NCBI RefSeq assembly: GCF_000058485.1
Contig: NC_008278.1
Span: 1,048,962 to 1,112,961 of the forward strand
Direction of reading: 5' to 3'
Source: Frankia alni ACN14a
GTDB lineage: Bacteria; Actinomycetota; Actinomycetes; Frankiales; Frankiaceae
DNA length: 64,000 nt
Shown here in pieces: positions 37,329-42,180 of this stretch. The position numbers and the translations under genes are program-made. How positions within the stretch are numbered: the first letter of the stretch is position 1; every line of letters starts with the position of its first letter. Under the pieces are notes generated by a model that saw only the letters and a program-made list of their open reading frames with translations, was not told the DNA's origin and did not search any database.

Positions 37329-37650
37329 TCCGTGATCGAATGTCGGCGTCGATCGCGTTGTTCACTTTCTCCGTCGGTGCGGTAGAGTTGTGATGGCGGT
37401 GTCGGAAGGTCGGAAAGGCCACCGATAGCCGCCCGATTTGGCCCGGTTTGCGGGGTGATGCGCTGCTGGTGGCGGGGTGCTGGGACCCACAACGCGCCCA
37501 TCAGCGTCACTTCTGTGGAAACATGGGGTCGTGGTTGCGCGTGCCCTCACCCTCGGGGCGCCGGTCGAGCGAGCGACGGGTCTGATCCCCGTCTCGCCCC
37601 GGCGCGGGTTCGCGTCGCACCCCGCGGCCGCGTGCCTCGTGATTGAGCCG
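37329..37650. other. leader region ahead of the sulfite/nitrite reductase
   Basis: About 320 bases. TTGTTC at 37358-37363 and TAGAGT at 37383-37388, 19 bases apart, form a possible promoter. Short frames starting near 37393 and 37455 have no clear support. The leader peptide gene follows at 37651. Confidence 0.4.
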
Positions 37651-37719
37651 ATGCTCGTCGCGCGCCTGCACGTCGATCTGCTGCGGGTCTCCAGCGCCGG
37701 CTGTCGCCGCTTCCGCTGA
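37651..37719 (+). CDS. sulfur-gene leader peptide (22 residues)
   Basis: Starts MLVARLHVDL and continues LRVSSAGCRRFR before TGA. The core LHVDLxRVSSAxCRR matches the short peptides found ahead of sulfate-assimilation operons in Streptomyces and mycobacteria, where an L-H-(V/I)-D-L start and a C-terminal Cys-Arg are the hallmarks. It ends 60 bases before the siroheme sulfite/nitrite reductase start. Such peptides are thought to let ribosomes sense cysteine supply. Here only one Cys codon is present (codon 18), so how strong the sensing is cannot be judged. Confidence 0.75.
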   Translation: MLVARLHVDLLRVSSAGCRRFR

Positions 37720-37779
37720 CGTTCCCGTTCGCGGCGCCGCTGTGCCGGCGTCGCGTTTCCCCGCGCATCGAGAGATCTC

Positions 37780-39579
37780 ATGACTTCTCCTGCCCGTCCC
37801 GTCCGTTCCGCACGCCCGTCCCGTCCCAAGGGGGCGGGCCAGTGGGCGTTGGGATACTCCGAGCCGCTCAACGCCAACGAGCGGATGAAGAAGGACCAAG
37901 GCGGGCTGGAGGTGCGCGACCGCATCCTCAACGTCTACCCGCACACCGGCTTCGACGGGATCGACCCCCAGGACCTGCGTGGCCGGTTCCGCTGGTGGGG
38001 GCTGTACACGCAGCGCCGGCCGGGGATCTCCGGCGGGCGCACGGCGGTCCTCGAACCGGAGGAGCTCGACGACTCCTACTTCATGCAGCGGATCCGGCTC
38101 GACGGCGGCCGAATGACCGCCGAGCAGCTTCGGGTCATCGCGGACATCTCCACCCGGTACGGCCGGGACGTCGCCGACGTCACCGACCGGCAGAACATCC
38201 AGCTCCACTGGATCCGCATCGAGGACGTGCCCGCCATCTGGGCCGCCCTCGAGGGCGCCGGGATGACGACCGCCGAGGCCTGCGGCGACACCCCGCGGGT
38301 CATCCTCGGCTGCCCGCTGGCGGGCGTCGACGGCGACGAGGTCATCGACGGCTCGGCCGCGATCGACGAGGTGGTCGAGCGTTTCGTCGGCGACCCGACG
38401 CTGGCGAACCTGCCCCGCAAGTTCAAAAGCGCGATCTCCGGCTGCGCGGACCACTGCACGCTGCACGAGATCAATGACATCGCGTTCGTCGGCGTCGTCC
38501 ACCCGGAACTCGGTGCGGGCTACGACCTGTGGGTCGGCGGCGGACTGTCGACGAACCCGAAGCTCGGCGTGCGGCTCGGCGCGTTCGTGCCGCCGGCGCG
38601 CGTCGCCGAGGTCTGGCACGGCGTCGCCTCGCTGTTCCGTGACTACGGCTACCGCCGCCTGCGCACCCGGGCGCGGCTGAAGTTCCTCGTCGCGGACATG
38701 GGCGCCGAATGGGTGCGCACCACCCTGGAGAAGGAGTATCTGACGGCCGCGCTGCCCGACGGGCCGCCGCCGGCACCGCCGCGCAACGAGGGCCGCGACC
38801 ACATCGGCGTGCACCGCCAGCGCGACGGGCGCAACGCGGTGGGCTTCGCCCCGCGGGCGGGGCGGGTCTCCGGATCGATCCTGCACGCCGTGGCGGATCT
38901 CGCCGATCGGTTCGGGCAGGGCCGCATCCGCGCCACGACGACCCAGAAGCTGGTCATCCTCGACGTCGCCGACGAGGCCGTGGCCCCGCTGGAGGCCGAG
39001 CTCGCGGCGCTGGATCTGGTCGTCCGGCCGAGCGTGTTCCGCCGCGGCACGATGGCCTGCACCGGGATCGAGTTCTGCAAGCTGGCCATCGTCGAGACCA
39101 AGGGCAACGCCCGCGACCTCATCGAGGAGCTGGAGCGCCGCCTGCCCGACTTCGACGAGCCGATCGGGATCAACGTCAACGGCTGCCCGAACGCCTGCGC
39201 CCGCTTCCAGGTCGCCGACATCGGGCTGAAGGGTTCGCTGGTCCCCGACGACAACGGCGAGATGGTCGAGGGCTTTCAGGTCCACCTCGGCGGCCACCTG
39301 GGCACCCGGTCACGGCTGGGCCGCAAGTCGCGAGGCCTGAAGGTCACCGCCGACGGCCTGCTCGACTACGTCGTCGGCCTGCTGGAGACCTACCGGCACG
39401 AGCGCGCCGACGGGGAGAGCTTCGCCGACTGGGCGGAGCGGGCCGACGAGGCGTCGCTGGCCGCCGTCGGCGCCGTGAGTTCCTCGGCCGGTGCCGGTGC
39501 CGGTGCCGGTGCCGGTGGCGGTGGCGGTGGCGGAGCCGGAGCAGGGCCGGCGGGCGGGGGTGGCGATGGCCGGCAGTGA
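37780..39579 (+). CDS. nirA: ferredoxin-dependent sulfite/nitrite reductase
   Basis: A siroheme/4Fe-4S enzyme giving six-electron reduction of sulfite (or nitrite). The cluster/siroheme cysteines are C427 and C433 (CTGIEFC) and C469 and C473 (NGCPNAC). Two ferredoxin-like halves: TDRQNIQLHWIRIED, then TTTQKLVILDVADE. Location with cysH, SUMT and a chelatase favours sulfite; the annotation nirA/sir is the actinobacterial convention. At 599 residues it has a 40-residue Gly/Ala tail of GAGAGA/GGGGGG type (39480-39550). Electrons probably come from ferredoxin via the reductase at 42745-43872. Expression is likely tied to the leader peptide upstream. Confidence 0.95.
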   Translation: MTSPARPVRSARPSRPKGAGQWALGYSEPLNANERMKKDQGGLEVRDRILNVYPHTGFDGIDPQDLRGRFRWWGLYTQRRPGISGGRTAVLEPEELDDSYFMQRIRLDGGRMTAEQLRVIADISTRYGRDVADVTDRQNIQLHWIRIEDVPAIWAALEGAGMTTAEACGDTPRVILGCPLAGVDGDEVIDGSAAIDEVVERFVGDPTLANLPRKFKSAISGCADHCTLHEINDIAFVGVVHPELGAGYDLWVGGGLSTNPKLGVRLGAFVPPARVAEVWHGVASLFRDYGYRRLRTRARLKFLVADMGAEWVRTTLEKEYLTAALPDGPPPAPPRNEGRDHIGVHRQRDGRNAVGFAPRAGRVSGSILHAVADLADRFGQGRIRATTTQKLVILDVADEAVAPLEAELAALDLVVRPSVFRRGTMACTGIEFCKLAIVETKGNARDLIEELERRLPDFDEPIGINVNGCPNACARFQVADIGLKGSLVPDDNGEMVEGFQVHLGGHLGTRSRLGRKSRGLKVTADGLLDYVVGLLETYRHERADGESFADWAERADEASLAAVGAVSSSAGAGAGAGAGGGGGGGAGAGPAGGGGDGRQ

Positions 39580-39841
39580 TCGGGCGGTGCCCTTCTACTG
39601 CCCGTACTGCGGCGAGGAGGACATCGTCCCGGAGCCGGCGCCGGACGGCGTCGGCACCGGGCACGGGCACTGGGCGTGCCGGTCCTGCCGGCGAGCCTTC
39701 CGGCTGAACCTGACGGCCCTCGCGGTCGCCGCGGGCCCGGTCGGGGCCACGCCGGCGGGCAGGCCGGCGGGCAGGCCCGACGCAGCGGGGGACCAGACGG
39801 CACGGCGAGGCGCCGCGCGCGACGACGAGGAGACGAGCTGA
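39566..39841 (+). CDS. zinc-ribbon protein of the sulfur operon
   Basis: 91 residues with a CPYC...CRSC zinc ribbon (YCPYCGEED, HWACRSCRRAF) and a disordered C-terminal tail. A small protein of this kind lies between sulfite reductase and cysH in Streptomyces too. Function unknown; perhaps a cluster- or partner-binding accessory. ATG 39566 overlaps the end of the reductase gene by 14 bases; the stop overlaps the cysH ATG. Confidence 0.82.
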   Translation: MAGSDRAVPFYCPYCGEEDIVPEPAPDGVGTGHGHWACRSCRRAFRLNLTALAVAAGPVGATPAGRPAGRPDAAGDQTARRGAARDDEETS

Positions 39842-40512
39842 TGGGTGCCACGTTGCAATCCCGGGCGTTGCGGGCCGGGGACGAGCTCGACGGCGCGCCG
39901 GCCGAGGAGATCCTCGGCTGGGCAGTCGAGGAGTTCGGCCCGAAGCTGGTGGTCGCCGCCTCCATGGCCGAGGCGATCCTGGTCGACATGCTCGCCCGGA
40001 TCCGGTCGGACGTGCCCGTGGTCTTCATCGACACCGGGTACCACTTCGCCGAGACGGTCGGCACCCGCGACGCGGTGGCCGCGACCTACGACCTGCCGCT
40101 GATCAGCGTCCGCCCCCAGCTCACCGTCGTCGGCCAGGACGCCGTCTACGGCCAGGACCTTTACAAGACCGACCCCGACCTGTGCTGCCGGATGCGCAAG
40201 GTGGTGCCGCTGGACCGGGCGTTGGCGCCGTACGACGCCTGGGCCGCCGGGTCGCGGCGCGCCGAGTCCGCCGGCCGGGCGAGCCTGAAGGTCGTCGACT
40301 GGGACGCGCGCCGCGGCAAGGTGAAGATCCACCCGCTGGCCGCCTGGACCGACGCCGACGTCGACCGGTACGTCGCCGAGCACGAGGTCATCGTCAATCC
40401 GCTGCTCTCGGACGGCTACGACTCCGTCGGCTGCCAGCCGTGCACCCGCCGCGGTGCCGGCCGCGCGGGCCGCTGGTCCGGCACGAACAAGACGGAGTGC
40501 GGCATCCACTGA
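39841..40512 (+). CDS. cysH: adenylyl-sulfate (APS) reductase, 4Fe-4S type
   Basis: Reduces APS to sulfite with thioredoxin. PP-loop-like start of the fold (VVAASMAEAILVDML, FIDTGYHFAET), and the 4Fe-4S ligands C115-C116 (DLCCRMRKV) and C198/C201 (GCQPCTRR) that separate APS from PAPS reductases; catalytic Cys in KTECGIH at the C-terminus. 223 residues. ATG shares its A with the preceding TGA. Partner of nirA in making sulfide for cysteine. Confidence 0.95.
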   Translation: MGATLQSRALRAGDELDGAPAEEILGWAVEEFGPKLVVAASMAEAILVDMLARIRSDVPVVFIDTGYHFAETVGTRDAVAATYDLPLISVRPQLTVVGQDAVYGQDLYKTDPDLCCRMRKVVPLDRALAPYDAWAAGSRRAESAGRASLKVVDWDARRGKVKIHPLAAWTDADVDRYVAEHEVIVNPLLSDGYDSVGCQPCTRRGAGRAGRWSGTNKTECGIH

Positions 40513-40610: not shown

Positions 40611-40616
40611 TACGGT
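40611..40616 (+). promoter_or_regulatory. -10 element placing the SUMT gene as leaderless
   Basis: TACGGT ends 7 bases before GTG 40624. It also overlaps the alternative GTG 40615, which favours 40624 as the true start. Confidence 0.45.
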
Positions 40617-40623
40617 GCACGCC

Positions 40624-42180
40624 GTGACGGACGGGCAAATCGCGGGTGAGGTCTGGCTGGTCGGGGCTGGGCCGGGTGATCCCGGGCTGTTGACCGTGCG
40701 TGGTCGTGAGCTGCTTGCGACCGCCGACGTGGTCGTGGTCGACCGGCTCGCCGCGGCCGTCCTGCTCGACGCCGCGCCGCCCGACGCGGAGATCATTCAC
40801 GTCGGCAAGAGCCCGACCGCCCGCTCCTGGGCCCAGGAGAAGATCAACGCGGTCCTCGTCGACCGGGCCCGGGCCGGCGCCCGGGTCGTGCGGCTCAAGG
40901 GCGGCGATCCCTACGTCCTGGGCCGGGGCGGGGAGGAGGCCCAGGCCTGCGCCGAGGCTGGCGTGGCCTGCACCGTCGTCCCCGGCATCACCTCGGCGCT
41001 GGCCGTGCCGGCGCTGGCCGGCATTCCGGTCACCCACCGCGACCTGGCGCAGGAACTTGCCGTCGTCTCCGGTCACCTGCCGCCCGGCCACCCCGACTCG
41101 ACCGTCGACTGGGCGGGACTGGCCGCCTCCCGGGCGACGATCGTCATCCTCATGGGGGTGGCGCGGCTGATGGACATCGCCGATGCCCTGCTCGCCGGCG
41201 GCCGCCCGGAGGTCACCCCGGTCGCGGTGATCGAGCGGGGCGCCACCCCGGCCCAGCGGGTCCTGCGCACCACGCTCGACGCCCTGGCCATCGACGCGAT
41301 TGCCGCGGGTGTGCGCTCACCGGCGGTGATCGTGGTCGGCGAGGTCGCCGCCCGCAACGACGCCCCGGCCGTCGGTGCGGCGCCGCTCGCCGGCGTGCGC
41401 GTCCTGGTCGCCCGCACCCGGCCTCGCCCCGGCCTGCTGGCCCGCCGGCTGCGGCAGCTCGGCGCGGACGCGGTCGAGACCGTCGTGGCCCATCCCGCCC
41501 CGCCCGACGACGCCGGCGCGGCGTTGCTGGCGGCGCTGCCCGGGGCCGCGGGCCTCGTGCTCGCCGACCCGGACGAGGTCGCCGCGGTGGTCGCCCTGCT
41601 GCGCCGGGCGGGCACCGACGTGCGCGCACTGGCCGGGCTGACCCTGGTGGCCGCCCGCCCCGACGTCACCGACGCCCTCGACGCGCTGGGCCTGGCCGCC
41701 ACCACACTCGACCAGCTCGGCCAGGCCGACCGGACCGACGCGGGCGCGGGCGACGCCGGCCGGGTCGCCCGTGCGGCGGGTGCCGGGCCGGCAGCGGCGG
41801 GCCGCCGGCCGGCCCCGGGGCCGGCGGTGCTCGTCGTCGGCGCGGCCGATCTGCCGGCGGGCGGCCCCTGGACTCCGCGCCGCGTGCCGCTGTTGACCGA
41901 CGTGACCGCCGATCCCGATCCGCGGATCGCCGACGAGCTGCGGCACGGCGACTTCGACGTCGCGGCCTTCGCCTCCTCGACGGCTGCCCGCAGTACCGCC
42001 CAGCTGTACGGGCCGCTGCCCCCGGACCTGCTCGTCGCCGCGATGGGCCGGCGTAGCGCCGAGGCCTGCGAGGCCGCCGGCATCCGGGTGGACATCGTGC
42101 CGACCGAGCCGGGGGTGCGCCCGCTCGCCGCCGCCGTCGCCGACTTCGTCACCGCCAGCCGCGCCGCCGCGGCCTCCTGA
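40624..42180 (+). CDS. cobA: uroporphyrinogen-III C-methyltransferase fused to a HemD-like domain
   Basis: The N-terminal 255 residues are a complete SUMT: VWLVGAGPGDPGLLTVRG, HVGKSPTARSWAQEKIN, RLKGGDPYVLGRGGEEAQ, VVPGITSALAVPALAGIPVTHR, ILMGVARL. It methylates uroporphyrinogen III to precorrin-2 for siroheme and cobalamin. The C-terminal half (from VRVLVARTRPRPGLLARRLRQ) resembles a uroporphyrinogen-III synthase fold but with an internal Ala/Pro-rich break and weak motifs. 518 residues. The leaderless-type GTG 40624 is preferred. It supplies siroheme for nirA; the hem-cluster fusion at 2589-4409 has the opposite pattern of domain conservation. Confidence 0.93.
   Translation: MTDGQIAGEVWLVGAGPGDPGLLTVRGRELLATADVVVVDRLAAAVLLDAAPPDAEIIHVGKSPTARSWAQEKINAVLVDRARAGARVVRLKGGDPYVLGRGGEEAQACAEAGVACTVVPGITSALAVPALAGIPVTHRDLAQELAVVSGHLPPGHPDSTVDWAGLAASRATIVILMGVARLMDIADALLAGGRPEVTPVAVIERGATPAQRVLRTTLDALAIDAIAAGVRSPAVIVVGEVAARNDAPAVGAAPLAGVRVLVARTRPRPGLLARRLRQLGADAVETVVAHPAPPDDAGAALLAALPGAAGLVLADPDEVAAVVALLRRAGTDVRALAGLTLVAARPDVTDALDALGLAATTLDQLGQADRTDAGAGDAGRVARAAGAGPAAAGRRPAPGPAVLVVGAADLPAGGPWTPRRVPLLTDVTADPDPRIADELRHGDFDVAAFASSTAARSTAQLYGPLPPDLLVAAMGRRSAEACEAAGIRVDIVPTEPGVRPLAAAVADFVTASRAAAAS

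Follow-up and report, generated by a model that had tools for sequence, protein, structure and literature searches.

A candidate cysteine-responsive leaderless leader peptide with a conserved UGU codon upstream of the nirA operon of Frankia alni ACN14a

How might a sulfite reduction operon respond to cysteine when the short frame that precedes it contains a single cysteine codon? This question is raised by a locus of Frankia alni ACN14a (NC_008278.1), analysed within a stretch of 64,000 nucleotides (the window; all positions count from its first letter). The original prediction described a cysteine-type leader peptide of 22 codons located 60 bases ahead of nirA. We estimate at roughly 0.7 the probability that a cysteine-responsive leaderless leader peptide controls the nirA operon. 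By analogy, the leader would be a cysteine-responsive attenuator of the mycobacterial kind, without the polycysteine tract.

The short frame, its operon and its family

The predicted frame was recovered as such: it runs from ATG 37651 to TGA 37719 on the forward strand, encodes the peptide MLVARLHVDLLRVSSAGCRRFR and stops 60 nt upstream of the nirA ATG (37780). The nirA gene, with its NIR_SIR domains, is followed by a PAPS reductase gene and a cobA/hemD-type gene, and the three therefore most likely form an operon for assimilatory sulfite reduction, the nirA product being probably an assimilatory sulfite reductase. The leader, which precedes nirA and the PAPS reductase gene, thus occupies a sulfur-operon position. 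No Pfam family matched the 22-residue peptide at E 0.01. A known RNA family was rejected, as the Rfam search of positions 37200-38000 returned one chance-level match, on the other strand.

The original prediction had proposed a comparison of nirA leaders among Frankia strains, and this comparison revealed a conserved core. All 22 residues of the peptide are matched, with 91-100% identity, in 13 out of 13 genomes of the genus (F. alni ACN14a included). The mean pairwise differences at the three codon positions are 0.026/0.000/0.163 in this core, i.e. substitutions fall at third positions, and 0.206/0.194/0.222 in the 126 nt upstream of it (the linker), where there is no third-position bias. The core thus evolves as a protein, while most of the preceding stretch does not. 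The last 60 nt of the linker show a slight third-position lean (0.174/0.109/0.234). A constrained coding linker was rejected, since no codon-position bias was observed across its full 126 nt.

The peptide passes the curated cut-off of the NCBIfam model NF042934, ‘putative leader peptide’ (cis_reg_atten; 34 bits for a cut-off of 27). This is a peptide model, which cannot state a codon, and the findings on the start and on the codon presented below are additions to it. The match to NF042936 (leader_Ms4527A) is only partial and fails the cut-off (28.1 bits for 45): this model is Cys-rich, whereas the Frankia leader is not, although its namesake precedes nirA in M. smegmatis, as the Frankia leader does (accessible part of PMC4633059). 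Members of NF042934 above the cut-off were found in 35 out of 35 genomes of the family, in 96 out of 148 genomes of the class and in none of 14 control genomes, 10 of which gave weak matches at E up to 10. In F. alni ACN14a itself, 26 matches are listed at E up to 10, five of them above the cut-off; only nine of the 26 reach E 0.001 or better, which counts against our main reading. Among the 18 listed matches that were inspected, 15 are leader-like (L009-L023, including the present leader).

We then considered the genes located behind such leaders. Ten ORFs behind leaders of the same genome, cut at 330 residues before the scan, were compared with NCBIfam: six gave matches, none above the curated cut-off, including alkanesulfonate monooxygenase and peptide/nickel-type binding proteins, and four gave none. 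In the wider set, 101 downstream ORFs were retained from 137 motif-bearing sequences after removal of near copies and short ORFs; they were selected by length and GC bias, and some are hence wrong. Their most frequent domains are rhodanese (26), NIR_SIR (17), SBP_bac_5 (12), luciferase-type monooxygenase (8) and PAPS reductase (4). The match to NF042934, these sulfur-related domains and the 32 Frankiaceae nirA genes preceded by such a leader support the predicted cysteine-type leader ahead of a sulfite/nitrite reductase.

Two side observations concern other loci. At L017, in the same genome, two motif-bearing leaders lie on opposite strands; by eye, the frame behind one of them resembles a beta-carbonic anhydrase, and NCBIfam returned no match for the frame scanned at this locus. 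In Streptomyces (L188, L196 and others), leaders, some of them ending Cys-stop, precede a gene beginning MAIEVRIPTILR, ThiS/MoaD-like by eye and equipped with a GACAGGAG-type ribosome-binding site.

Table 1. Positions of the features discussed, within the 64,000-nucleotide window
Feature	Position	Strand	Evidence
TTGTTC ... TAGAGT, promoter-like block further upstream that may be a second promoter	37358..37388	+	13-genome alignment by eye, some variation
CACAAC element (25 nt ahead of the -10-like hexamer)	37488..37493	+	Genus alignment and two other-genus sequences, by eye
TG-G-AAACAT, an extended -10-like element whose end lies 6 nt upstream of GTG 37531	37516..37524	+	Pattern in 30/32 Frankiaceae nirA leaders
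Probable full leader ORF, leaderless, GTG start, 62 codons	37531..37719	+	Frame kept at ten distances, 30/30
Linker TGC, the other Cys codon of the longer ORF	37633..37635	+	TGC in 13/13 genus sequences
22-codon frame of the original prediction, constrained C-terminal part of the leader	37651..37719	+	Family match, conservation, codon-position pattern
Fixed motif RLHVDLLRVSSAGC, R-x3-D-x2-R-x5-C	37663..37704	+	Residue conservation with varied codons
Invariant Cys codon TGT, presumed sensing codon	37702..37704	+	TGT throughout the family sets
GC-rich hairpin of the leader-nirA spacer	37730..37755	+	Pairing in 13 genomes
GAGAGATC, putative ribosome-binding site of nirA	37770..37777	+	Conserved position in Frankiaceae
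nirA, ferredoxin-type nitrite/sulfite reductase	37780..39579	+	PF01077 and PF03460 (NIR_SIR domains)
PAPS/APS reductase gene	39676..40512	+	PF01507
cobA/hemD-type uroporphyrinogen methylase/synthase gene (siroheme branch)	40615..42180	+	PF00590, PF02602

Start of the leader and promoter-like elements

The start at ATG 37651, as originally predicted, is probably 40 codons too late. The genus alignment displays a second conserved stretch, about 110-160 nt upstream of this ATG. In relatives of other genera, the stretch resolves to the pattern TGN-[AG]ANNAT, followed 5-7 nt on by ATG or GTG. Thirty out of 32 Frankiaceae nirA leaders contain the pattern, each a single time in the 330 nt upstream, and the NTG behind it is open and in frame with the motif in all 30, at ten distances from the start to the motif Arg codon (51, 75, 108, 132, 135, 138, 174, 180, 264 and 291 nt). 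As the promoter-like pattern was composed after inspecting these sequences, the frame test alone is independent of it. In the two remaining leaders (L163 and L174), visual inspection shows a variant element with an ATG in frame. The in-frame, open NTG kept at ten distances makes a leaderless ORF the probable form of this leader, the promoter-like element standing, in silico, directly before the start codon. Judging from these alignments, GTG 37531 is probably the true start, rather than ATG 37651; an internal start at ATG 37651 or GTG 37639 may also be used.

In the wider family, the plain arrangement TANNNT-N5-7-[AG]TG was searched within 150 nt of 134 leaders and was found in frame in 49 cases and out of frame in 3, the majority of these leaders having no plain TANNNT start site. 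For the leaders of F. alni ACN14a, a plain site was found in 3 out of 16 rows, which also counts against the main reading. Among the named loci (best 80 of at least 306 relatives), a TANNNT-type site is in frame in 67 out of 80, with TACGAT-N6 in 58, and no out-of-frame hit was observed within 90 nt.

The sigma-70 scan of positions 37340-37800 found no promoter. Much of the genus retains the CACAAC element, a possible activator site. The TTGTTC ... TAGAGT block, about 140 nt upstream of the leader start, is also conserved in the genus. The conserved block preceding the leader was rejected as a regulon element, as it has one exact place in the genome (the present one) and one with 3 mismatches.

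The motif and its invariant cysteine codon

Leaders were collected by the motif itself: 137 sequences scored at least 17 for the motif, carried its Cys and reached a stop codon in no more than 200 nt, with TGT and TGC both admitted. The first counts were made on 132 of them. The five omitted were three leader-like sequences (TGT) and two chance matches (TGC); restoring the former gave 135 leaders, and all 137 sequences comprise 135 TGT and 2 TGC. The Arg, Asp and Arg of the motif are kept in 132, 132 and 131 of the 132 leaders, with several synonymous codons each. Since the set was collected by the motif, this codon variety is the informative part of their conservation.

The motif Cys is encoded by TGT in 135 out of 135 leaders, spread over 50 genus labels. 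A second collection, the best 80 of at least 306 confirmed relatives found via the stretch LVARLHVDL before the Cys, overlaps the first set in a few contigs; it gave TGT in 80 out of 80 (77 distinct), the other Cys codons being TGC 76 times and TGT 5 times. From the 35 genomes of the family, the place of the leader was readable in 33, one stretch being N and another ending at a contig edge. TGT was found in 32, i.e. in 32 out of 32 Frankiaceae nirA leaders having the motif Cys. The last one (L175) keeps the motif and has no Cys, which counts against the main reading.

In comparison, TGT represents 24 out of 133 other Cys codons of the same leaders (counted over the stretch that begins three codons ahead of the motif and ends at the stop) and 24 out of 366 Cys codons of the downstream ORFs (Fisher P = 8e-52 and 7e-98, respectively, relatedness ignored). 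The proportion of U-ending codons is raised in the leaders for Asp (39/144 vs. 205/3014) and His (25/103 vs. 96/828), yet far from fixed. As a control, distinct windows were sorted by motif score: TGT was found in 117 out of 117 windows scoring at least 20, while those scoring 17-18 comprised 4 TGT and 4 TGC, and chance matches of lower score had mostly TGC. Finally, a tRNA scan of the genome gave 45 hits, including one tRNA-Cys, with anticodon GCA. The same tRNA thus serves UGU and UGC, the former through wobble pairing.

The statement that this leader has a single Cys codon is correct for the 22-codon frame; a second one, the linker TGC, belongs to the longer ORF. The original prediction took a Cys after DL as usual and a lone Cys codon as a possible sign of weaker sensing. 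Neither holds across the family: the position after DL is Leu in 46 and Cys in 46 of the 132 leaders, and a lone Cys is seen in 64 out of 135 when the count runs from three codons ahead of the motif up to the stop codon.

Two kinds of variant leaders are also of note. L084, L086 and L087 carry polycysteine versions of the motif, the motif Cys being TGT there as well, with TGC immediately before it. L058 and L175 (G015:C611) form a divergent leader pair, in which the leader on the nirA side has no Cys at the motif place; the nirA match on the L175 side contains one in-frame TAG, and the genome is 63% complete.

We consider it rather likely that the sensor is one specific synonymous codon, UGU and not UGC, acting as a working part. 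UGU would be slower, or less misread, than UGC once Cys-tRNA runs low. Alternatively, the reading of UGU could depend on a sulfur-containing modification of tRNA-Cys, for which ms2i6A37 is a candidate, and would then report sulfur status besides charging. On this reading, replacing UGU by UGC would leave the peptide unchanged yet diminish the response or eliminate it. No report of a UGU rule was found in the mostly open-access literature searched, and a UGU codon fixed across the family would come as a surprise to specialists.

Proposed mechanism, alternatives and known leaders

From the ORF, frame, conservation, family, sulfur context, UGU codon and single tRNA-Cys computed here, we infer the transcription start, the translation, the stalling and the sign of the response. 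The transcript would begin at or adjoining GTG 37531, and ribosomes would translate from its 5' end, crossing the linker, where constraint is loose, before they reach the fixed motif. A shortage of Cys-tRNA would, by analogy with mycobacteria, make the ribosome wait at the lone UGU of the motif, and this wait would raise nirA expression. When cysteine is plentiful, the ribosome would read through to the stop at 37717, and nirA would be kept low.

The spacer between the leader and nirA measures 55-77 nt in two genera (g1 and g5). It has no terminator-like site in the window, the sole one in 37340-37800 lying upstream of the leader (37344-37360), and the locus thus differs from a classical transcription attenuator, which has an intrinsic terminator between leader and gene. 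Given this length and the lack of a terminator-like site, a translational effect at the ribosome-binding site seems likelier than termination in the spacer. GAGAGA (29 sequences) or GAAAGA (2 sequences) is found 4-7 nt upstream of the nirA ATG in 31 out of 32 Frankiaceae sequences. The nine pairs of the spacer hairpin are formed in all 13 genomes (117 out of 117 cells paired, five pairs varying); covariation is weak, its score being reached by 73 out of 500 shuffles. RNAalifold, applied to 13 sequences, pairs leader codons with the stretch upstream of nirA in a predicted helix. Release of the ribosome-binding site through pairing with the leader found no support in two folding tests: own duplexes are no better than cross-genus ones (in the best 5% at 2 of 32 loci, L161 and L174, and weakest at 3, L154, L155 and L173), and folding with a ribosome footprint does not open the site. 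Masking the footprint at the Cys codon changed the folding by a mean of -0.24 kcal/mol compared with no ribosome (lower at 12 and higher at 5 of 32 loci) and by -0.01 kcal/mol compared with a ribosome at the stop.

Other explanations have to be weighed against a ribosome waiting for Cys-tRNA. The nascent chain R-x3-D-x2-R-x5-C could itself stall the ribosome in the tunnel, with or without the help of a small molecule (cysteine, for instance), the charging of Cys-tRNA being secondary. Such a nascent-peptide role, raised by the original prediction, is possible because Arg, Asp and Arg are kept while their codons vary. An arrest peptide would also fit the place of the motif, as 112 out of 135 leaders end 1-4 codons past its Cys and the following codon never begins with G, compared with a G after 110 out of 247 background Cys codons. 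However, it leaves the TGT-only Cys unexplained, and the upstream residues may reflect common descent in a set collected by the motif; we hold this explanation as a tentative one. The signal could instead lie in the RNA: UGU and its neighbours might, for example, pair with the ribosome-binding site further on, which would make the codon preference a by-product. TGT is preceded by C or G in 135 out of 135 leaders and in 79 out of 80 of the second collection (best 80 of at least 306), it is followed by G in neither set, and the GACAGGAG-type site downstream in Streptomyces loci might, judged by eye, pair with CUGUY. However, 24 out of 32 Frankiaceae nirA spacers contain no ACA and thus no Watson-Crick partner for UGU, so pairing with an ACA near the gene was rejected for these loci, and the bases further from UGU vary at third positions. 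A signal in the RNA is quite improbable.

A stalled ribosome could also prevent Rho-type transcription termination in the untranslated stretch past the leader. The g1 and g5 spacers, with their 55-77 nt, are short for a Rho site, and the spacer is able to fold as a GC-rich hairpin. In its favour, the spacer is devoid of any intrinsic terminator-like site, and Seliverstov and colleagues (2005) put forward such a mechanism for the cys leaders of mycobacteria, in the accessible part of PMC1262725; we judge it unlikely. Lastly, the whole could be a conserved untranslated sequence or a chance ORF of a GC-rich genome, in which long open frames are common, and the linker overall has no codon-position bias. 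The third-position substitutions of the core, the peptide family with its codon-varied residues and the frame kept across ten distances make this hardly credible.

The cysteine-responsive leader preferred here is closest to the polycysteine leaderless short ORFs of mycobacteria, which were reportedly described by Canestrari et al. in 2020. As far as the accessible parts of the following sources go, Cys-rich leaders precede nirA/Msmeg_4527, cysA2 and Rv0485 in mycobacteria, with ribosome occupancy demonstrated at the cysA2 locus (PMC4633059), and later papers attribute cysteine-dependent attenuation in M. smegmatis to leaderless ORFs with Cys codons (PMC9031893, PMC13236596). The Frankia leader resembles these leaders as a probably leaderless short ORF with Cys codons upstream of sulfur genes. 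In contrast, it has no contiguous tract but isolated Cys codons (one in the 22 codons, one in the linker), a long linker and an invariant UGU, and the folding tests did not support a release of the downstream ribosome-binding site. In the part of PMC1262725 that is accessible, the leaders of Mycobacterium, P. acnes and B. longum analysed by Seliverstov et al. (2005) similarly have Cys codons near the stop and no conserved terminator hairpin, but these codons form runs, unlike those of the Frankia leader. The uORFC-8-2 that precedes cysS in Rhodobacterales is likewise a Cys-codon uORF proposed to sense Cys-tRNA; it differs by two tandem Cys codons, a dominance of UGC and an intrinsic terminator (accessible part of PMC8632094). 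In the accessible text of a study of S. lividans, eight leader peptides are given, none of which is named cysteine-dependent (PMC8079986).

Relative to these known leaders, the probably leaderless arrangement without a Cys tract and the UGU at the motif Cys appear to be new. Leader peptides are usually thought to sense through several codons for one amino acid. For annotators, the motif R-x3-D-x2-R-x5-C ending in TGT, combined with a leaderless start, offers a rule to find candidate sulfur-responsive operons in actinobacteria, and this rule also reaches genes of unknown role located behind such leaders. If the codon reading is true, codon-specific sensing could be tested directly by silent mutation in a class-wide family that works with one codon but not with its synonym.
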